Below are positions 14,903-25,580 of a DNA stretch of 33,260 nt, piece after piece. This stretch comes from a virus. The stretch is from IMG/VR virus record IMGVR_UViG_3300025132_000015, positions 1 through 33,260 of that record; one strand, 5' to 3'. The notes beneath the pieces were generated by a model. That model made no database searches, had not been told where the DNA came from, and worked only from the letters and a program-made list of their open reading frames with translations. The position numbers and the translations under genes are program-made. The first letter of the stretch is position 1, and the number at the start of each line of letters is the position of its first letter.

Positions 14903-15337
14903 TTACTCATAACCATCATTTAATATTTTCCTAGCTTTATCTTTAGCAGACACAGTTGAAAATTTATCAATATTTTTATTTGTATAAACTTTCATTTTTT
15001 TACCCCATCTACCTTTAGCGCCTAGCTTACCAGCTTTGCTTTTCTTTTCTACTATATCCTTAATTTTAGTTTTTATTTCTTTTATCCTTTTTTGAGACAC
15101 TTTATCGCCATTATCAATTAATAAAGGAACTATATTATCCATTAATTTTTGATACTTTTTATTATCTCTTATGCCAAGTATATTAGGAATATGCCTTTTA
15201 AATAGGCTACAATCATCTTGTAGATACATTGTAGCTATTAGGGTTATATAAGCGCCTTTTTCCTCTAAAGTTAATACAGAAGTATCTGCAAGCCAATCAG
15301 CTGGGTAAAATGGAAAATAAAATAATTTTTCTTTCAT
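14903..15337 (-). CDS. DUF1376 (YdaU-like) replication-associated protein
   Basis: A 144-residue protein beginning at the ATG of a TAATG junction (15337) with GGAGG just upstream; a longer frame from 15361 overlaps the previous gene and carries that ribosome site, so I reject it. The N-terminus F-Y-F-P-F-Y-P-A-D-W-L-A-D-T...L-T-L-E-E-K-G-A-Y-I-T-L-I-A-T-M-Y is diagnostic of DUF1376, a domain found on phage proteins next to replication genes and thought to belong to initiator or helicase-loading modules. The C-terminal third is Lys/Gly-rich. It ends the leftward block. Confidence 0.8.
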   Translation of the reverse strand: MKEKLFYFPFYPADWLADTSVLTLEEKGAYITLIATMYLQDDCSLFKRHIPNILGIRDNKKYQKLMDNIVPLLIDNGDKVSQKRIKEIKTKIKDIVEKKSKAGKLGAKGRWGKKMKVYTNKNIDKFSTVSAKDKARKILNDGYE

Positions 15338-15519
15338 TACTCCTCCATTATTTTTGACCAAGATAAATTGTATTTATCTCTTATTTTTTTGATTAGCTTT
15401 ACACTCAAGTTTCTTTTACCTTGAAACAGTAATGTAACCATAGTTTCTGATATATCTAAATCTTTAGCTAACTGTGATTTAGATATTTTTTTCTTTTCTA
15501 TTATTTGTTCAAGTATCAT
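15337..15519 (-). CDS. Cro/CI-type helix-turn-helix regulator
   Basis: A 60-residue protein that is essentially one lambda-repressor-like domain: I-S-K-S-Q-L-A-K-D-L-D-I-S-E-T-M-V-T-L-L-F at about 12-32 is the helix-turn-helix, followed by G-K-R-N-L-S-V-K-L-I-K-K-I. There is no cleavage or oligomerisation domain, so it is closer to Cro than to full CI. It has an AAAGGA ribosome site and its start lies within the end of the preceding zinc protein. As the only such regulator seen, it is the likely ligand of the TTTAC-N5-GTAAA operators upstream of the same transcription block. Confidence 0.8.
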   Translation of the reverse strand: MILEQIIEKKKISKSQLAKDLDISETMVTLLFQGKRNLSVKLIKKIRDKYNLSWSKIMEE

Positions 15520-17311: not shown

Positions 17312-17480
17312 AATATTCACCTCCACTTATGTTACAATGATGACAATAATAAACTACACCATCAGTTTTTTTAGTTATACTTAAACTCCTATCCCTTTTA
17401 TTTTTCCTAGTATGGCTACACTCTGGGCATTTATATTTACCAGAATAGGAAACAGATAGCAGCCACTCTCTACTAATCAT
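17205..17480 (-). CDS. Primase zinc-binding domain as a separate protein
   Basis: A 91-residue protein with C18-P-E-C21 and C46-H-H-C49 zinc ligands, R-S-L-S-I between them and C-N-I-S-G-G after, the pattern of the N-terminal zinc domain of phage primases that reads the template. It starts within the last 8 bases of the upstream HTH gene and overlaps the helicase start by 107 bases in a different frame; the helicase ribosome site is coded inside its S-G-G-E residues. The tail after residue 54 has no family pattern. It probably acts in trans, or is fused by slippage at a 7-A run (17251-17257 on the plus strand as T7). Confidence 0.78.
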   Translation of the reverse strand: MISREWLLSVSYSGKYKCPECSHTRKNKRDRSLSITKKTDGVVYYCHHCNISGGEYYERDFEEYNRVRREKENKQKNSYGFKNRKWTGTVW

Positions 17481-17703
17481 TATCTGCTACTTTCAAATGA
17501 TATTCAGCAAAATGATTTCTTTTTACTCCATTACTTTTAGATTTAGTTTCTATATCATACCCTTCTTGTCTTAAAACGTGTATGATAGCGCCTAATCTAA
17601 AACTGCCATACAAATTAAGTGCTTCTAGTGGATTTATTTTTTTGTTTTCTTCCAAATGTTTTAGCACTAATTCTTTTTGCGTTAGCTTTCTGTATTCTGT
17701 CAT
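17473..17703 (-). CDS. Winged-helix-like small DNA-binding protein
   Basis: A 76-residue protein from ATG 17703 with an excellent AGGAGGAAAATA ribosome site; a longer frame from 17763 lies within the HNH gene and is rejected. The sequence R-K-L-T-Q-K-E-L-V-L-K-H-L-E-E-N-K-K-I-N-P-L-E-A-L followed by F-R-L-G-A-I-I-H-V-L-R-Q-E-G-Y-D-I matches a common phage helix-turn-helix family that reads as 'loop length, then R-L-x-A-x-I-H-x-L-R'. Likely a regulator or replication accessory. It overlaps the end of the nuclease gene by 89 bases. Confidence 0.7.
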   Translation of the reverse strand: MTEYRKLTQKELVLKHLEENKKINPLEALNLYGSFRLGAIIHVLRQEGYDIETKSKSNGVKRNHFAEYHLKVADND

Positions 17704-18064
17704 TATTTTCCTCCTTGTTATAAGGACTAGCACTCCAAACTTTTTGAACAGTAAGAATGCCAAACCTTGAATTAAAAACTACTTCTTGAAAAAAATTATA
17801 TTCATTACCACAAAGATGTAACTCCCTATGATGCTTTTCACACAAAGGAATTACATCTTTATCACTAGCTTTCAAACCCATACCTCTTGATGAATAAAAA
17901 GGTTTGAGTAGATGGTGCGCTTGTATATTATAAAAATCACTACAAGTTGAAATATTTTTGGGCGCTATACCAACCATTTCTAAATTATCAAAATGCTTTT
18001 TGATACAACAATCCAAAGTCGTTACCCATTGTAAATGTTTTTTATTAGCATACCTAGTAGCCAT
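17615..18064 (-). CDS. HNH-fold nuclease (DUF968/YbcO-like)
   Basis: A 149-residue protein beginning on a TAATG junction with the upstream SSB-like gene. The core A-H-H-L-L-K-P-F...R-G-M-G-L-K-A-S-D-K-D-V-I-P-L-C-E-K-H-H-R-E-L-H is a zinc/HNH-type nuclease motif; G-M-G-x-K...D-x-x-x-I-P-L-C-x-x-H-H is typical of the DUF968/YbcO recombination nucleases. Cys at 19-20 and 41 may add metal ligands. The C-terminal 35 residues are basic and probably unstructured. Place next to SSB and exonuclease suggests recombination or replication-intermediate processing. Not an obvious homing enzyme, as it does not interrupt a gene. Confidence 0.72.
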   Translation of the reverse strand: MATRYANKKHLQWVTTLDCCIKKHFDNLEMVGIAPKNISTCSDFYNIQAHHLLKPFYSSRGMGLKASDKDVIPLCEKHHRELHLCGNEYNFFQEVVFNSRFGILTVQKVWSASPYNKEENNDRIQKANAKRISAKTFGRKQKNKSTRST

Positions 18065-18589: not shown

Positions 18590-18605
18590 ATTAATAAAAG
18601 CTCCT

Positions 18606-19394
18606 TTAATCATCATTTTTAGCTTTTAAAAAATGATGTATTTGCAAGTAATTTTTCCATACTTCCAAATCTCTTACATAGCTATCAACATCATAAAGAT
18701 ACTCTTTAATTTCTTTAGTATCTTTATCTATAGCTACAATTAATCTATTGAATGGCTCTCTACCTAGTTCATTACAAAGTGCATACATATATCCACATAG
18801 TTGAATGCGCCATTTAGTTCCTACAGATTTTTTAGTGACTGTTTTCCAATCTATTATACACTCACCATATTTTGCGTGGTCTATCCAGCAATCAAACTGT
18901 CCAGCATAGGGCAAAATACTATTATCATAAACTAAATATTCTACAGCGTGTACTTTTCTAACACTTTTATTTAGATATTCATAAAGCGCATATTGCATTA
19001 AGCGTATTTGATTATCTTTTTCATCGTGCCCTTTATGATAACCAGTTTCTGACATAGTACCTTTTAAAAAATTTTCACAAAAACTATGAATAATTGTTCC
19101 TATCACTTTTTGGTCATTCCATTTTTTTTCTGCTAGTTTTTTTATTTCAAATAACTTTTCTTGCAAGTCTGTAAGGTCATTTACTCTTAACAAACCAGAG
19201 TTAGGCAACTCCTCCACCAAAGTTTCTAAATAATTTTTACGACCAGCCAAAGCGCCTATGGTAAAACCATCATCACCTTGAACAATACCACTCACGCTTG
19301 ATGGTGATATTTTTTTACCATCATCATTAACATAATATCTATGATTACCAGCGCTAAATTTTATTTCTATATTATTAAATTTTCTAATCTTCAT
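18606..19394 (-). CDS. PD-(D/E)xK exonuclease (RecB/lambda-exo-like)
   Basis: A 262-residue protein. Motifs appear in order: G-x-x-x-H (G-T-I-I-H, His103), a metal-binding Asp in A-G-Q-F-D168-C-W-I-D, the core I-I-D182-W-K184-T and R-I-Q198-L-C-G-Y-M-Y. This is the catalytic set of the RecB/lambda exonuclease branch of PD-(D/E)xK nucleases, which resect DNA ends for recombination or replication. Ribosome site CGAGG lies upstream. No recognisable annealing protein (Beta/Erf/RecT) is seen; the SSB-like neighbour may take part. Confidence 0.85.
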   Translation of the reverse strand: MKIRKFNNIEIKFSAGNHRYYVNDDGKKISPSSVSGIVQGDDGFTIGALAGRKNYLETLVEELPNSGLLRVNDLTDLQEKLFEIKKLAEKKWNDQKVIGTIIHSFCENFLKGTMSETGYHKGHDEKDNQIRLMQYALYEYLNKSVRKVHAVEYLVYDNSILPYAGQFDCWIDHAKYGECIIDWKTVTKKSVGTKWRIQLCGYMYALCNELGREPFNRLIVAIDKDTKEIKEYLYDVDSYVRDLEVWKNYLQIHHFLKAKNDD

Positions 19395-20047: not shown

Positions 20048-20060
20048 ATTAAGCTCCTTT

Positions 20061-20258
20061 TTAGTTAAAAAATATTGTCCAAAATTCTTCTCTATCCATT
20101 TTTAATTCACTAGCCATATCATCAGCTTGAATATAAATAGCAGAAAACCTTTCGTCATCATCAGGAACACGATTGATGAGCCAATTATGCTCATCAACCA
20201 TACTCTCAATAATTTCTTGTTGTATTGGGGTAAGATTATATTGTGAATAAATAGACAT
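20061..20258 (-). CDS. Small acidic early protein, unknown function
   Basis: A 65-residue acidic protein starting on a TAATG junction (20258). It contains L-T-P-I-Q-Q-E-I-I-E-S-M-V-D-E-H-N-W-L-I and a late E-L-K-M-D-R-E-E-F-W-T-I-F-F ending. Strong negative charge and an aromatic end are features of small phage proteins that mimic DNA or bind host factors, but this is only a composition-based thought. No family recognised. Confidence 0.55.
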   Translation of the reverse strand: MSIYSQYNLTPIQQEIIESMVDEHNWLINRVPDDDERFSAIYIQADDMASELKMDREEFWTIFFN

Positions 20259-20551
20259 TAAGCGCTCTCCTTATATAAAGAGTTATTAGTATAATACGCA
20301 ACATCTTTTCTATAATCTTTAAGCCTGTTTCGTATATCAGCTATTTCAATATTTATACTTTTCAAATCCCATTCACTTATTTGAATAAATTTATACAATG
20401 GAAGTTTTAGTAAATTAATAAAATAAGCAAGTGCATTTTTTTCTACTTGTATTTTATTTTTATATATTTGAATTTTGATTTTTCCTTCTTCAACTGGATT
20501 AACACCAGTATTATCAAAATAGGTTTTTTGTTTTTTAGTAAGTTTTTTCAT
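20258..20551 (-). CDS. Early Lys-rich helical protein, unknown function
   Basis: A 97-residue basic protein beginning M-K-K-L-T-K-K-Q-K-T-Y-F and continuing in helical, Ile/Lys-rich sequence (I-K-I-Q-I-Y-K-N-K-I-Q-V-E-K-N). It is the first gene of the transcript from the double-operator promoter at 20584-20629, with ribosome site AAAAGGAGCT. No domain or motif recognised. First position after a regulated promoter suggests an early role. Confidence 0.58.
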   Translation of the reverse strand: MKKLTKKQKTYFDNTGVNPVEEGKIKIQIYKNKIQVEKNALAYFINLLKLPLYKFIQISEWDLKSINIEIADIRNRLKDYRKDVAYYTNNSLYKESA

Positions 20552-20583
20552 TTTAGCTCCTTTTTTTTATTATAATTAAGATT

Positions 20584-20629
20584 ATCATATATTTTACATT
20601 AAGTAAAGACTATATTTACTATCTGTAAA
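20584..20629 (-). promoter_or_regulatory. Leftward promoter with two operator palindromes
   Basis: On the minus strand a TATGAT -10 element lies at 20589-20584, 33 bases before the ATG of the 97-residue gene. Two copies of TTTAC-N5-GTAAA precede it: 20593-20607 (N5 = ATTAA on the plus strand) and 20615-20629 (TATCT), centres 22 bp apart. The nearer one ends 3 bp from the -10, where a bound protein would block RNA polymerase. The same arrangement occurs at 21171 and 22551. No good -35 is present. Confidence 0.65.
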
Positions 20630-20630
20630 A

Positions 20631-21146
20631 TTAATTAAAACTCCTAGTTGTAGCGCCTTTGCTCCAGGTTTTTATAAAACTAGGCATATTATTTAGCTTT
20701 TTCCAAGTGGCTATGCCTGATTTATATTTAGCATAATAGTAATATGTTTGATATGCTAGCACGCTACAGTCATTTTTATAGTCATCAGGCATACATTGAG
20801 GGTGTTTTAGCTTGAGTAAATTTTTACTACTATGATATACAGGGTGATGTGATACAGCAGTAATAACCTTTTGACAGCTATGAACCTTGCCGTATCGTTT
20901 AGTGTACTCTGAACACAGCGCTAATGCGTGGATATATAGCCAATCATAGTGAGCTGCGTCATCACCAGCCCATAAAGTACAAGGGTGTTTTTTAAATGCT
21001 TCCTTATAAGGCACATTATGTAAGTCAAACCTATGCCAAACGCTACATAACATTTGAGCAGATTCTAACGGCATTTTTACAATATGCTTATCGCACATCA
21101 TTTTAGCTGCTTTGACAGGGTCATTATTTAATACAAAAATATTCAT
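20631..21146 (-). CDS. Conserved phage protein with His/Cys-rich core, unknown function
   Basis: A 171-residue protein starting M-N-I-F-V-L-N-N-D-P-V-K-A-A-K-M-M-C-D-K-H-I-V-K-M with later H-P-C-T-L-W, Y-D-W-L, L-C-S-E-Y-T-K-R-Y-G-K-V-H and Y-H-S-S-K-N. This is a recurrent phage family ('D-x-D-P-x-x-A-A-x-x-x-x-D-K-H-x-V-K-M'); it is sometimes labelled as pyrimidine-dimer glycosylase-like, which I cannot confirm because the DenV active-site N-terminus is absent. Clustered His and Cys could bind a metal. It has its own operator-controlled promoter at 21171-21201. Confidence 0.68.
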   Translation of the reverse strand: MNIFVLNNDPVKAAKMMCDKHIVKMPLESAQMLCSVWHRFDLHNVPYKEAFKKHPCTLWAGDDAAHYDWLYIHALALCSEYTKRYGKVHSCQKVITAVSHHPVYHSSKNLLKLKHPQCMPDDYKNDCSVLAYQTYYYYAKYKSGIATWKKLNNMPSFIKTWSKGATTRSFN

Positions 21147-21170
21147 ATATAGCTCCTTTTGTTATAGACT

Positions 21171-21201
21171 ATCATACCTTTTACTATTAGTAAAGAGTAA
21201 A
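21171..21201 (-). promoter_or_regulatory. Leftward promoter with operator palindrome
   Basis: TATGAT at 21176-21171 (minus strand) is followed by the leader AAAAGGAGCT and the ATG at 21146. The 15-bp perfect palindrome TTTACTATTAGTAAA (21180-21194, three-base centre) ends 3 bp upstream of the -10, and an extra half site AGTAAA lies at 21196-21201. Architecture matches the promoters at 20584 and 22551. It separates the ArdC transcript from the downstream early genes. Confidence 0.65.
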
Positions 21202-21216
21202 TGTAGGAAGTAGCAA

Positions 21217-22125
21217 TCAAGCCACTTCCTTTTTAGCGCTAGGTTGTAAGTTATTTAAAAACTCTATAGCTTGACTGCTTTTACTGAAAGCTGAAAATAT
21301 TGCTCTAGGATTATTTTTAATAACCTCTTTCCAATGATTGAGATATTTAGCGTGGTCAGGTCGAGGACTTTTGCTAACACCTAGCATAACACATAACATA
21401 GCTGAACCAGTTTCAGCTACTAACTCTTCCATAGCATATTCTTTAGAGCCGAATGATTTACTAAAATCTCTTTTACATCTATCTTTATGCCCAGTCCAAT
21501 GAACCAGCTCGTGCAATAAAGTGCTATAATAATTTTCACTTGCCTTTGCAGTTTTCGTATCTTTGAACTGCGCTTTACTAGGCATATTAATATAATCTAA
21601 TACAGGAGAATAACAGGCTCGGTTACCACCTATTTGAATTACAGCTTTAGTATTTGCAATATACTGCTCGGCACGTTTGACGCTTTTAACTTTGTTGATT
21701 ATTTTTTTAGGCTTTGGTAATTTTATACCATCAACTTGCGCTACATTAAATACATTCCATACTTTCAAAAACCAGCGTGATTTAATTTCAGGGTCGCCAT
21801 TTTCATCTACATTATTTTTATCTTCAAACCTTTTAAGCTCCCAATAAAATACTCTGGTAGACTTTTCACCTTTTTTTACAGTAGCGCCTAATTTACTCCA
21901 CTGCTTATAGGTCGCCCAAGCATTATTCGTGTAGCCTTTATAGTGACACGCTAATGATAGCCATAAAATATTGAACCCAGTATATTCTTTTTGGGTAGCG
22001 TGATTTATAGGATAGCTCTTAGCCATCATATCACGCCAAGGTTTATCCCAATCGCTACCATATTTTTCCATATCAGCAAGTATGGTAGCAGAAACTTCTT
22101 TTATTATATTAGTAGTATATGACAT
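21217..22125 (-). CDS. ArdC-like antirestriction protein (ssDNA-binding plus zincin domain)
   Basis: A 302-residue protein. Residues 1-135 match the ArdC/TraC N-terminal ssDNA-binding domain (P-W-R-D, N-x-x-T-Q-K-E-Y-T-G-F-N, T-Y-K-Q-W-S-K-L-G-A-T-V-K-K-G-E-K-S-T-R-V). Residues 150-300 are a zinc metallopeptidase-like domain with H205-E-L-V-H209 (in L-L-H-E-L-V-H-W-T-G-H) and a downstream acidic E-E-L-V-A-E at 233-238. Members protect incoming DNA against restriction. It is third in the first early transcript, fitting a role at genome entry, and the peptidase residues look intact. Confidence 0.87.
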   Translation of the reverse strand: MSYTTNIIKEVSATILADMEKYGSDWDKPWRDMMAKSYPINHATQKEYTGFNILWLSLACHYKGYTNNAWATYKQWSKLGATVKKGEKSTRVFYWELKRFEDKNNVDENGDPEIKSRWFLKVWNVFNVAQVDGIKLPKPKKIINKVKSVKRAEQYIANTKAVIQIGGNRACYSPVLDYINMPSKAQFKDTKTAKASENYYSTLLHELVHWTGHKDRCKRDFSKSFGSKEYAMEELVAETGSAMLCVMLGVSKSPRPDHAKYLNHWKEVIKNNPRAIFSAFSKSSQAIEFLNNLQPSAKKEVA

Positions 22126-22334
22126 TATACCTCCTCATCATTATAAGGTTGCTCAAAAATATCTGGATTATATTTAGCTTTTACTTCGTCATAACAATAA
22201 TCACAAACATTACCACAAGAATAACCATTAGCATCTTTCAGTTTGAATACATAATCGCCTTTATGGATATTCCTTGAAGGTTCACATTTTTCGATAACAT
22301 TACCTTGCCAGTCGTATTTATTTTCAGTACACAT
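22125..22334 (-). CDS. Small Cys-rich zinc-binding protein
   Basis: A 69-residue protein with Cys at positions 2 and 17 and the cluster C-G-N-V-C-D-Y-C near 40-47, likely holding one zinc. Ribosome site AAGGAGATATAATT precedes it, and its stop shares a base with the ArdC start (TAATG). No defined family. Its pairing with ArdC could mean a shared host-defence role, but that is context only. Confidence 0.6.
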   Translation of the reverse strand: MCTENKYDWQGNVIEKCEPSRNIHKGDYVFKLKDANGYSCGNVCDYCYDEVKAKYNPDIFEQPYNDEEV

Positions 22335-22336
22335 AA

Positions 22337-22516
22337 TTATATCTCCTTATGAGTGATAGGATTAGTAATAGATAACTGCTGAAGTTTAGCAAGTTTACGA
22401 TTTAACATATCAATAATAGGCTTATTGCTATTGACAGTACCAAGCCTATGATACTCAGCAATACTAGCTTTGATATGAGTAATTTGATATTCTACTTTTT
22501 TTAGTTTAGTTAACAT
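22337..22516 (-). CDS. Small first-early helical protein
   Basis: A 59-residue ORF from ATG 22516 (leader AAAAAGGAGCTAAATAA) to TAA 22337. It is basic and helical: M-L-T-K-L-K-K-V-E-Y-Q-I-T-H-I-K-A-S-I-A-E-Y-H-R-L-G, then I-I-D-M-L-N-R-K-L-A-K-L-Q-Q-L. It is the first gene of the leftward block, directly under the double-operator promoter at 22551-22598, and its last codons carry the ribosome site for the zinc protein. No family recognised. Confidence 0.6.
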   Translation of the reverse strand: MLTKLKKVEYQITHIKASIAEYHRLGTVNSNKPIIDMLNRKLAKLQQLSITNPITHKEI

Positions 22517-22550
22517 TTATTTAGCTCCTTTTTAATTTATAACTAATGAT

Positions 22551-22598
22551 ATCATATTTATTTACTATTAGTAAAGAACTATTTGTTACTATTAGTAA
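22551..22598 (-). promoter_or_regulatory. Main leftward early promoter with two operator palindromes
   Basis: TATGAT at 22556-22551 (minus strand) lies 35 bases before ATG 22516. TTTACTATTAGTAAA (22561-22575, perfect palindrome) ends 4 bp upstream of it and a second core TTACTATTAGTAA (22586-22598) lies 24 bp further, centre to centre. This is the start of the whole early block. Location over the -35/spacer region predicts repression by a dimeric protein. Confidence 0.68.
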
Positions 22599-22874
22599 AG
22601 TTTATTGCTATAGCTAAAAAGGGTAATAATCCCTAGGAAAATAGCGCTGCGACAGGCTGCGGTCATTACATAAGCTATAAATGGTATATACTAGGCATAT
22701 AAACAACTATATACTAATGCTCTAATAATTGTTTGAATATTAAATATTAGTATTGAATTAACAAACATAGGGTTTTGCTATACCTTTGTCTATCATCTGC
22801 TATGCGTTTGTCATAGCCTTTGCTATATCAATATTAAAGTTAAAGTTAAAGAATATATATTAGGAAGGTAAGCT
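22599..22874. promoter_or_regulatory. Divergent non-coding region, left half
   Basis: 276 bases without a convincing gene. It contains a small hairpin AGGG-TAATAAT-CCCT near 22620, a GC-richer patch with two GCTGCG words (22647-22662), two copies of TATATACTA (22685-22693, 22708-22716), the hairpin GCTATG-7-CATAGC (22799-22817) flanked by two TTTGCTATA words (22774-22782, 22819-22827), and GTTAAA tandem repeats at 22848-22859. The mix of short repeats and hairpins is typical of a control region or origin; no tRNA seen. Confidence 0.5.
22808..22837 (+). promoter_or_regulatory. Possible rightward promoter for the 46-residue ORF
   Basis: TTGTCA (22808-22813) and TATTAA (22832-22837) are 18 bases apart and match the sigma-70 boxes at 5 and 4 of 6 positions; the ATG of a small ORF is 38 bases downstream. 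The AT-rich surroundings make chance matches common, so this is only a candidate. Confidence 0.3.
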
Positions 22875-23015
22875 ATGAAGCTAATTAGTTTGATAGGCGC
22901 TTATTTAAGGATAGGAGTGCTGGAAAGCAAAATCGCCTATTTCTACCCCAACAAAAAAGGGAGAACAAAAATAGCTCAAATGAGGTACGAAACCAAACCA
23001 TCAGTTACAGGCTAG
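22875..23015 (+). CDS. Short rightward ORF in the control region
   Basis: Forty-six codons from ATG 22875 to TAG 23013-23015, preceded by AGGAAGG six to seven bases upstream. The product begins with a hydrophobic helix (M-K-L-I-S-L-I-G-A-Y-L-R-I-G-V-L) and becomes basic (N-K-K-G-R-T-K-I-A-Q-M-R-Y). The good ribosome site in a region otherwise without genes supports translation. No family recognised. Being alone between the divergent blocks, it could be a regulator or lysis-timing peptide. Confidence 0.5.
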   Translation: MKLISLIGAYLRIGVLESKIAYFYPNKKGRTKIAQMRYETKPSVTG

Positions 23016-23283
23016 GGTAAGCCCACACAATAACAAAGGCATACTTATATACTAATGTACCTTAATGTGATTGTATGACGCTTAAAACTAATTAGAATTG
23101 CTTATGGTGATATATAAAGCTATAAGGGGACCCTTGCCAAAAAAAGTTTTTTAGATTGCGATGCCAGGACGGCTTGGGGGGTTAGGTAGGGTTATATACT
23201 AAACCACTATTAACCATAACAATAATTTGACAACTATATTATTTTTTGATAAATAAAAAAGCAACTAACCATCTAGGAGAGAT
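23016..23283. promoter_or_regulatory. Non-coding region before the virion block (possible packaging site)
   Basis: 268 bases with no convincing gene. It carries two more TATATACTA words (23046-23054, 23193-23201), the GC-rich ends GGGGACCCTTGCC (23126-23138) and a G-run patch at 23160-23191 that is far above the local GC level, separated by AAAAAAA-G-TTTTTT. It lies just upstream of the ParB-like and terminase genes. Candidate cos or pac site, or origin; nothing here proves which. Confidence 0.4.
23227..23255 (+). promoter_or_regulatory. Candidate late promoter before the ParB-like gene
   Basis: A perfect TTGACA (23227-23232) is followed after 17 bases by TAAATA (23250-23255); the ATG of the ParB-like gene is 29 bases further with AGGAGAG as ribosome site. 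No other plausible start for the long rightward block was noticed nearby. The -10 match is weak, so host or phage activators may be needed. Confidence 0.45.
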
Positions 23284-23916
23284 ATGAAAATAGAATTAGT
23301 AAATCCTGATACTCTTATAAACTATGATAAGAACCCTCGTAAGAATATACACGCTGTATCTAAAATAAAGGATAGCATAAAAGAGTTTGGTTTTAGGCAA
23401 CCTATAGTAGTAGATGAAAATAACATAATACTCGTAGGGCATACTAGATTGCTTGCAGCTAAAGAGCTTGGCTTAAAAAAAGTGCCTATTCATAAGGCGC
23501 TAGGCTTAACTGACGCACAAAAAAAGGCATATCGTATTATGGATAATAAATCAGCAGAATATGCCGACTGGGATAAAAATCTTTTAAAAAGCGAATTATT
23601 AGATTTAGCTGACGCTGATTTTGATATGAACCTGACAGGTTTTAGCCTTGAGGATATAAATAAGCTCACTACAGACGAACTATTAAACTTTGCTAGTGAT
23701 AATATAGAAGAAGATATGCTTGAGGATTCAGTAACCAATTTTGCGCCCAGCAACGTAAAATTAGTACAATTATTTTATGATACTGATACGGAACTGCTTT
23801 TTAGGGAAATGTGTACGATAATACAAGAACACTATAAATTAGATAATTTATCTGATGTAGTTTATAAAGTAATTGAAGATGAATACAAAGTTATTAAAAG
23901 TAAAAGCGCAAACTGA
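23284..23916 (+). CDS. ParB-like domain protein of the DNA-modification cassette
   Basis: A 210-residue protein. Residues 1-100 are a ParB/Sulfiredoxin-fold domain: N-P-D-T-L-I-N-Y-D-K-N-P-R, K-I-K-D-S-I-K-E-F-G-F-R-Q-P-I-V-V-D, G-H-T-R-L-L-A-A-K-E-L-G (the G-x-x-R-x-x-A nucleotide-binding box), then R-I-M-D-N-K-S-A-E. Related domains in phages act as CTPase clamps or nucleases and are known neighbours of TET/JBP genes. The C-terminal half is helical and unassigned. First gene of the rightward block; it overlaps the oxygenase start by 38 bases. Confidence 0.85.
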   Translation: MKIELVNPDTLINYDKNPRKNIHAVSKIKDSIKEFGFRQPIVVDENNIILVGHTRLLAAKELGLKKVPIHKALGLTDAQKKAYRIMDNKSAEYADWDKNLLKSELLDLADADFDMNLTGFSLEDINKLTTDELLNFASDNIEEDMLEDSVTNFAPSNVKLVQLFYDTDTELLFREMCTIIQEHYKLDNLSDVVYKVIEDEYKVIKSKSAN

Positions 23917-24814
23917 TTATAAATCTTTTGCTAAAAGGTCAGGCACTTTTGTAAAAGAAAGTGAAATACACACAATTATAAATTATAATTGTGACGCTTA
24001 TGATGAACAAGGCGAACCCTTATTTTTTTTTAGAAAAAATGTAATCCCTGCTAACTTATGCAAAACTGCATATTATGCTTTACGAACAGCAGCTACAGGA
24101 ACAAATAATAGAGGAGACGCAGCTGGTTTTCACCACCCACTAGAAAATACTACTATCAAAGGGCAAAGGCTTGAAAGTGGTAAACCTCAAAAAAGATTTA
24201 CAGTAGTTAAAAAAGATGGAACGCTTGATAGCGTAGCAAGAGCGCAACACGTTAAGAGTGGAATCATAGGTTACTTCGATAGAAATGTAAGATTTCCATA
24301 TTGCAGACAAACTGCTTGGACAGAAAAAAATTTTCCGAATTATATCAAAAGTAAAAAATATATACAAGCTATTTCTGATGAATTTAAAAAAGCATCGCCT
24401 GATAGGTACGAAAAGCAAAAAAAAGCTATAGATAGAACGCATAATGATTTTAAAATAGAAGGAACAGTTTTTACCACAGTTACAGTAAACAAAAATTTTA
24501 GAACAGCAATACACGTTGATGCTGGAGATTATGAAAAGGGATTAGGTAACATAGCAGTTTTACAAGCTGGAGAATATAAAGGAGGTGAAACTTGTTTACC
24601 AAGATATGGCATAGGCTTTGATGTAAGAAATACTGACGTATGCTTTTTCAATGTTCACGAATGGCACGGCAATTTACCTATAGTAGCAAAAAAACCATAC
24701 GAAAGAATAAGTCTAGTTTGTTACTATAGAAAAAATATGGATAAATGTGGAAGCAGTAAAGAGGAACTAGAGATAGTAAAAAATAGAAAAAATTTTAAAG
24801 GGTTAAATGTATAA
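23879..24814 (+). CDS. TET/JBP-type 2-oxoglutarate/Fe(II) DNA base oxygenase
   Basis: A 311-residue protein from ATG 23879 (TTG 23873 is less likely). The family block G-Y-F-D-R...C-R-Q-T-A-W-T lies at 131-148, followed by the core: N204, the iron ligands H212-V-D214, G-E-Y-K-G-G-E-T-C-L-P at 231-241, the distal ligand H263 in E-W-H-G-N and the 2-oxoglutarate Arg276 in Y-E-R-I-S-L-V. TET/JBP enzymes hydroxylate the 5-methyl group of 5mC or thymine in DNA. All metal ligands are present. The next gene, overlapping by 8 bases, is a matching glycosyltransferase. Which base is used here cannot be read from sequence. Confidence 0.85.
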   Translation: MNTKLLKVKAQTDYKSFAKRSGTFVKESEIHTIINYNCDAYDEQGEPLFFFRKNVIPANLCKTAYYALRTAATGTNNRGDAAGFHHPLENTTIKGQRLESGKPQKRFTVVKKDGTLDSVARAQHVKSGIIGYFDRNVRFPYCRQTAWTEKNFPNYIKSKKYIQAISDEFKKASPDRYEKQKKAIDRTHNDFKIEGTVFTTVTVNKNFRTAIHVDAGDYEKGLGNIAVLQAGEYKGGETCLPRYGIGFDVRNTDVCFFNVHEWHGNLPIVAKKPYERISLVCYYRKNMDKCGSSKEELEIVKNRKNFKGLNV

Positions 24815-25580
24815 ATTAATAATACCAACCTATAAAAGAGCTGAAACTCTTAAAAATAAAACAATGGCATATTTAAAAAAAACAAACATCAACGCTAAAA
24901 ATATTTTTATATATGTAGCCAATAAAGAAGAAAAAGAACTATATGAAAACACAATAGATAAAAATAGTTATGCAGAAATAATTATAGGCAAAAGAGGGTT
25001 ACCACAACAAAGGAACTTTATACAAAAAACACATAAGATAGGCGAAAATTTATTTATGCTAGATGATGATTTAAAATCTATAAAAATGAAAGTCAATGAT
25101 AAAGTATTAACAGAAATAAATGATTTAGATAGTTTTATAAATTTTGCTTTTGATATTTGCAATAAAAATAAAACTAGATATTTTGGCACATACCCAGTTG
25201 ATAATCCTTATTTTATGAAAAATGTAATAACTTTTGATTTGAGATATATAGTTGCTAACATAAGTGGTACTGTAAATAATCACGATATATTTAGAGATGA
25301 GGGTGAAGAATGTGAAGCTAGGAAAAATTTTACAGCAGGAAAAGAAAGCCACGAAATGACAATCAAATATTTTTTAGCAGATAAAAGCATAGCAAGATTT
25401 AATTATATAGCGCCCACAAGCACTTACTGGGGAGGTGAAGGTGGTCATCAAGTTTCCAGAAACATAGAAGGAGAAAAAGCAGCTACTGAATGGTTGTATA
25501 AAAAATACCCACAATACTTCAAAAAAGTTTTAAGAAAAAATGGTATGTGGGATTTAGTAATTAAAAGGAAAAAAAAATGA
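24807..25580 (+). CDS. TET-associated glycosyltransferase (TAGT-like)
   Basis: A 257-residue GT-A-type glycosyltransferase. The opening Y-K-L-I-I-P-T-Y-K-R-A-E-T-L is the nucleotide-sugar binding strand, K-R-G-L-P-Q-Q-R-N at 62-70 the linker helix and L-D-D-D88-L the metal-binding acidic motif; W-G-G-E-G-G-H lies in the acceptor side. This pattern is that of transferases coupled to phage TET/JBP enzymes, which add sugars to hydroxymethylated bases. It overlaps the oxygenase gene by 8 bases and terminase by 4, so the three are co-translated. Sugar donor unknown. Confidence 0.82.
   Translation: MYKLIIPTYKRAETLKNKTMAYLKKTNINAKNIFIYVANKEEKELYENTIDKNSYAEIIIGKRGLPQQRNFIQKTHKIGENLFMLDDDLKSIKMKVNDKVLTEINDLDSFINFAFDICNKNKTRYFGTYPVDNPYFMKNVITFDLRYIVANISGTVNNHDIFRDEGEECEARKNFTAGKESHEMTIKYFLADKSIARFNYIAPTSTYWGGEGGHQVSRNIEGEKAATEWLYKKYPQYFKKVLRKNGMWDLVIKRKKK

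Follow-up and report, generated by a model that had tools for sequence, protein, structure and literature searches.

Phages of the lambda type control their early genes through Cro, a very small helix-turn-helix (HTH) dimer whose palindromic operators overlap promoter elements, with neighbouring operators lying 23–24 bp apart centre to centre; itself a product of the early region, Cro exerts negative control on early transcription. The locus described here comes from a marine bacterial virus represented by a single IMG/VR virus record (IMGVR_UViG_3300025132_000015), whose 33,260 bases are the whole stretch of DNA that was analysed (hereafter, the window). It resembles the lambda system in having a small HTH protein, palindromes that overlap promoters, a similar spacing of paired sites and, as we propose, negative control of early genes. 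Unlike lambda, the window has three tandem promoters on one strand instead of one divergent switch region, and its operator half-site appears to coincide with the -35 element. A search of the record for integrase (PF00589) gave no match while its controls were positive (the record may be incomplete), and no CI-like second HTH repressor was found, a single HTH_3 match in the record lying above cut-off. A lambda-type lysis/lysogeny switch was not found in this record.

Controller proteins of restriction-modification (R-M) systems offer a second comparison. C.BclI, C.AhdI and C.Esp1396I, the nearest solved folds to the window's candidate regulator (a 60-residue HTH_3 protein), are small HTH_3 dimers that regulate their own genes and have paired operators close to the promoter, whereas the window has several target promoters and some promoters of this kind carry a single site. 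The window's HTH_3 gene also lies among a primase-helicase, short ORFs and a primosomal-like protein, with no R-M pair beside it. CylR2 of Enterococcus, a 66-residue HTH dimer, is also among the closest folds and, of the solved chains, is the one most similar in sequence (E 0.003), but the similarity is weak and, unlike the window candidate, CylR2 is a bacterial regulator of another operon.

Phages with several dispersed sites are known as well. In cluster A mycobacteriophages, as far as the portions of two reports consulted here describe them, one phage repressor acts at several genome sites (stoperators) with specificities that diverge between relatives; stoperators are asymmetric and numerous and also stop elongation, whereas the window has five palindromes, at promoters only (PMC9283540, PMC6550527). 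Some alphaproteobacterial phages controlled by CtrA likewise have clustered palindromic sites that overlap elements of phage promoters, but these are TTAA-N7-TTAA sites read by a host protein (PMC9437464). The type of control is a familiar one, of which the window system is a well-supported new example; the portions of the literature on pelagiphage transcription available to us described no operator of this kind.

Palindromes and promoter anatomy of the leftward cluster

The window carries a minus-strand gene cluster running from ~22,516 down to 14,903, with structural and packaging genes oriented rightward. Its order is an ArdC-like antirestriction protein (21217..22125; domain matches to ArdcN and MPTase-PolyVal), a pyrimidine dimer DNA glycosylase-like protein (20631..21146), an exonuclease, an HNH-like protein, an HTH_39 winged-helix protein (17473..17763), the primase-helicase, the 60-residue HTH_3 (Cro/C1-type) protein (15337..15519) and the primosomal-like protein; we call these genes early on the basis of their content. 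Three putative promoters serve the cluster. P1 precedes a 59-aa gene with no family match (22337..22516), beyond which come a 69-aa ORF and the ArdC-like gene; the first gene after P2 encodes the glycosylase-like protein; and the first after P3 is a 97-aa ORF (20258..20551).

A preliminary description of the window had reported five palindromes of the form TTTAC-N5-GTAAA, solely in front of leftward genes and in two cases paired 22–24 bp apart. All five were found at the positions given there, four as exact TTTACN5GTAAA matches and the fifth with one mismatch, in a 2+1+2 layout and only upstream of leftward genes. On the minus strand, P1 has a putative proximal operator at 22561..22575 (TTTACTAATAGTAAA) and a distal one, the mismatched copy, at 22585..22599 (TTTACTAATAGTAAC); P2 has a single site at 21180..21194 (TTTACTAATAGTAAA); and P3 has a proximal site at 20593..20607 (TTTACTTAATGTAAA) and an exactly matching distal site at 20615..20629 (TTTACAGATAGTAAA). 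Start to start, the pairs are 24 bp (22561/22585) and 22 bp (20593/20615) apart. Exact copies are rare: four were seen against 0.20 expected, none of 100 shuffles reached four, and the window holds no others. Two shorter TTACN5GTAA cores occur elsewhere in the window (546 and 18022), both within ORFs, and a search allowing two mismatches was near background (60 vs 47).

The proximal palindromes lie in a recurrent promoter context. Across 16 promoter-proximal sites on nine contigs, 13 conform to TTTAC[T/A]-N16-18-TANNNT, a sigma-70-type pair of -35 and -10 elements 16–18 bp apart and fixed relative to the palindrome, whereas shuffled downstream sequence gave a mean of 2.5 and a maximum of 10 in 20,000 sets. 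At two of the three exceptions, L260 and L264, the hexamer at the 16-bp spacing is TATAAC; P2 of L219 has no clear -10. The upstream half-site of the proximal palindrome is thus most likely the -35 element, TTTAC[T/A], and at P1, P2 and P3 we place it at the first six bases of the palindrome (TTTACT; 22570-22575, 21189-21194 and 20602-20607). The proposed -10 boxes, each with TGA before it, are TATCAT for P1 (22546..22551, spacer 18), TAGTCT for P2 (21166..21171, spacer 17) and TAATCT for P3 (20579..20584, spacer 17), all on the minus strand, and would be of the extended type (TGA-TANNNT). The proximal palindrome appears to span the -35 and the spacer, with start codons 47–62 bp from its first base. 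Transcription is predicted to start downstream of the palindromes, so that they could not form hairpins in their own transcripts.

The preliminary description had instead taken TATGAT, 3–4 bp from the nearest palindrome, as the -10 box. The distances hold in the window, where the minus-strand TATGAT copies (22551-22556, 21171-21176 and 20584-20589) are 4, 3 and 3 bp from the palindrome and overlap our proposed boxes, but they do not hold as a fixed feature: the gap is 2–4 bp in L260 and L217 and 7 bp at P3 of L219/L126, and TATGAT is absent from this place in most other relatives. TATGAT is also common by itself (48 copies), and we rejected it as the -10 because the geometry that recurs in relatives is TTTAC[T/A]-N16-18-TANNNT. 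The 25–35 bases before the ATG that had been assigned to an AAAAGGAGCT leader are the position of the TATGAT box; AAAAGGAGCT itself lies just upstream of the ATG, only a few bases away, and reads as a Shine-Dalgarno sequence. The ribosome-binding sequence AAAGGAGCT occurs five times, always on the minus strand, against 0.34 expected (18599-18607, 20052-20060, 20555-20563, 21151-21159 and 22523-22531). Since two of these copies (18599 and 20052) precede leftward genes that have no palindromes, the sequence is not specific to the module.

Coordinated change of the sites among relatives

Relatives were collected through matches to the glycosylase, the HTH protein and the terminase. L126, whose type also covers L125, L127, L128, L219, L220 and L229, is syntenic with the window at 75–85% DNA identity, and L130/L129 (L237/L272) are mostly 71–87% identical to it across shared parts. 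By terminase the nearest cultured phages are pelagiphages, for example HTVC034P (47% identity), and the terminase search of bacterial genomes gave no match. The longest window ORF is no longer than 652 aa; a search for the T7-type polymerase family gave no match, but since control genomes gave none either, it does not establish absence.

The 2+1+2 layout is kept at orthologous places in L126 and L130, both of which also have the distal site of P1, with P1/P3 pair spacings of 24/22 in the window, 24/24 in L126 and 22/22 in L130. The sequence of the sites changes in step. While the window has four TTTAC-N5-GTAAA sites and none of the other types, all five L126 sites are TTTAC-N5-GTTAA, and the 15 kb of L126 contain none of the three other types; the L130 sites are of mixed type. 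The proximal sites keep TTTAC as their upstream half, as expected if that half doubles as the -35, whereas their downstream half differs among lineages, as do the distal sites. The same base change at five separate L126 sites is hard to explain unless a single protein reads them all, and nothing else in the data points so strongly to one trans-acting regulator; judged from sequence, the relatives form a clear natural record of an operator set changing in step. The sites were gathered with a pattern that requires the inner C and G, but an open TTWA-N7-TWAA search found both bases in 14/21 matches lying 40–70 bp before a start, compared with 28/261 elsewhere, so the C and G are part of the motif.

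A scan of the whole collection for the palindrome with TATGAT gave at least 119 stretches. Among the matches listed, the loci with multiple matches include L011, a near-identical copy of the window, together with L009 and L027, which resemble internal repeats of a protein-coding gene and were set aside. Palindromes in L294, L296, L302, L310 and L316 occupy the same spot inside primase-helicase coding sequence and were not counted as operators. In related phages TTAAC-N5-GTTAA stands ahead of leftward-type genes (L343, 1501-1515; L236, 3458-3472); the L343/L310 phage has an HTH_3 protein with a different recognition helix, and this sequence is possibly a third operator type.

A candidate regulator and its linkage to the palindrome

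Several observations point to the 60-residue HTH_3 protein as the regulator. It matches PF01381 at 34.5 bits (cut-off 23), its predicted structure has five helices in a Cro/C1 fold (pLDDT 86), and structure comparison returned Cro/C1-type domains at probability 1.00, but at E-values of 0.03 or above. Orthologues occur in L130 (80% identity) and L126 (74%), relatives that carry the operators. In L260 and L264, relatives with an 82% identical terminase, an exact palindrome lies immediately 5' of a 66-residue HTH_3-type gene together with a -35, a -10 and a Shine-Dalgarno sequence, looking as an autoregulated operator would; L265 has a palindrome with one mismatch at the corresponding place before its HTH_3 gene, and L260 has a second copy, also with one mismatch, facing a divergent gene. 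In L271 two sites precede early-type genes and, as in the window, the HTH_3 gene is just 3' of the helicase on the same strand. The palindrome before the HTH_3 genes of relatives, together with the position of the window's own gene in the cluster, makes the 60-residue protein the best candidate, and from the L260 and L264 arrangement we propose that an HTH_3 dimer binds the palindromes.

The linkage is not universal. The window's HTH gene has no operator directly upstream, and the lack of a palindrome before the gene in the HTH_3 relatives L332-L335, L317 and L330-L331 counts against this reading and indicates that specificity differs within the wider family. Upstream of their HTH genes, which are of the L260 type, L330 and L331 instead have a conserved ATTTTCAATTTGCATATTATTTATTTTAAGAGTATAAGATTATAAC in common, which may be a different operator. 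L297 encodes an HTH_3 protein 70% identical to the window's, but the only exact TTWACN5GTWAA in its 32.9-kb record falls within a gene. Beyond that the record has just TTGACTATATGTTAA, a copy with one mismatch, at an early-type promoter close to where the contig ends; the early region of L297 may be truncated.

Proposed control of P1–P3 and competing explanations

We consider it probable that the palindromes are operators of a phage-encoded Cro/C1-type HTH_3 dimer, likely the 15337-15519 protein, which represses P1–P3 with feedback. Host sigma-70 polymerase would use the TTTACT of each proximal palindrome as the -35, with a TANNNT -10 box 17–18 bp beyond it, and a dimer bound to that palindrome would occlude both the -35 and the spacer, blocking the polymerase. 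At P1 and P3 a second dimer 22–24 bp upstream, about two helical turns away, would lie on the same face and probably bind cooperatively. With an operator in that position, the most likely outcome is repression coupled to negative feedback; and since the regulator gene lies downstream in the leftward cluster that it would control, and is presumably cotranscribed with it, early transcription would make the repressor, which would then lower early transcription in a Cro-like feedback that limits early expression. Of the preliminary claim of one regulator with a fixed geometry, a single regulator of several leftward promoters is supported by the layout, the coordinated change and the HTH_3 linkage, and the TATGAT geometry is not.

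The same operators and phage regulator might instead work in the manner of an R-M controller protein, the distal site at P1 and P3 activating and the proximal site repressing at higher dose, so that expression comes as a timed pulse. In favour of this, three lineages have sites paired 22–24 bp apart at two of their three promoters, and controller proteins are the nearest solved folds, but fold likeness between such small domains is weak evidence given E-values no lower than 0.02, and a single exact site over the -35 is found at P2 in all three lineages and at promoters of L213, L217, L225 and L271. A distal site could activate P1 and P3, whereas promoters with one site leave no room for such activation, and we consider this explanation unlikely overall.

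Control by a phage protein also accounts better for the data than binding by a host regulator such as CtrA, which has a precedent in that CtrA binds and regulates phage promoters in other alphaproteobacterial phages (PMC9437464). The TTAA-N7-TTAA motif fits one L237 site (TTAACTATTTGTTAA) and the L236 and L343 sites, but none of the five window palindromes; the window has three matches against 5.9 expected, all away from the palindromes and without enrichment at promoters. The retention of the inner C and G before starts also argues against CtrA, and coordinated change between close phages together with the linkage to phage HTH_3 genes better suits a phage-encoded regulator, making a host regulator quite improbable.

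Very improbable, in our assessment, is that another phage protein reads the sites, the foremost candidate being the HTH_39 winged-helix protein, which is of a DNA-binding type, is encoded in the same cluster and is conserved in the window, L126, L130, L213 and L271. L212 and L230 encode an HTH_39 protein of 79% identity, but TTWACN5GTWAA occurs nowhere along the full length of either record, and L260 and L264 have the palindrome before the HTH_3 gene with no HTH_39 gene found in the sequence searched. That the sites are promoters only, with TTTACT as the -35 and the palindrome a by-product of A+T-rich promoter sequence, is scarcely credible: half of every proximal palindrome does coincide with a plausible -35, but the second half-site and the distal copies are not required for promoter function, and yet all of these are kept and change together.

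Little is known about gene timing in uncultivated marine phages of this size that lack a recognisable polymerase of their own, and the window group now has a specific operator, a candidate regulator and a promoter anatomy. The proposed repression by the HTH_3 protein leads to a broader proposal, which we offer tentatively: that one uncultivated group of marine podophages places several tandem early promoters under one Cro-like protein with no CI partner, that specificity evolves in the other half-site and the distal sites because one half-site is the -35, and that the regulon is recoded along with its regulator, as in the change from GTAAA to GTTAA at five sites. The window, L126, L130, L271 and L260 make up a natural series in which the divergence of the operators runs alongside that of a 60-residue candidate regulator. 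The series lends itself to the question of how specificity can shift at once in a minimal HTH protein and in every site that it targets.

Some features lie outside the control region. IMGVR_UViG_3300030116_002682 (62,884 bases), the source of L130, L237, L245 and L310, has two terminase and two HTH_3 genes of this phage group and so appears to be a contig in which a pair of related phage genomes has been joined. In the window, ~700 non-coding bases (22600-23280, no ORF of 50 aa or more) separate the leftward cluster from the rightward genes and are possibly a replication origin or a rightward control region. Directly 3' of a ParB-like gene, on the plus strand at 23873-25580, a TET/JBP-type oxygenase (PF12851) adjoins a TET-associated glycosyltransferase (PF20691), likely a pair for DNA cytosine hypermodification.
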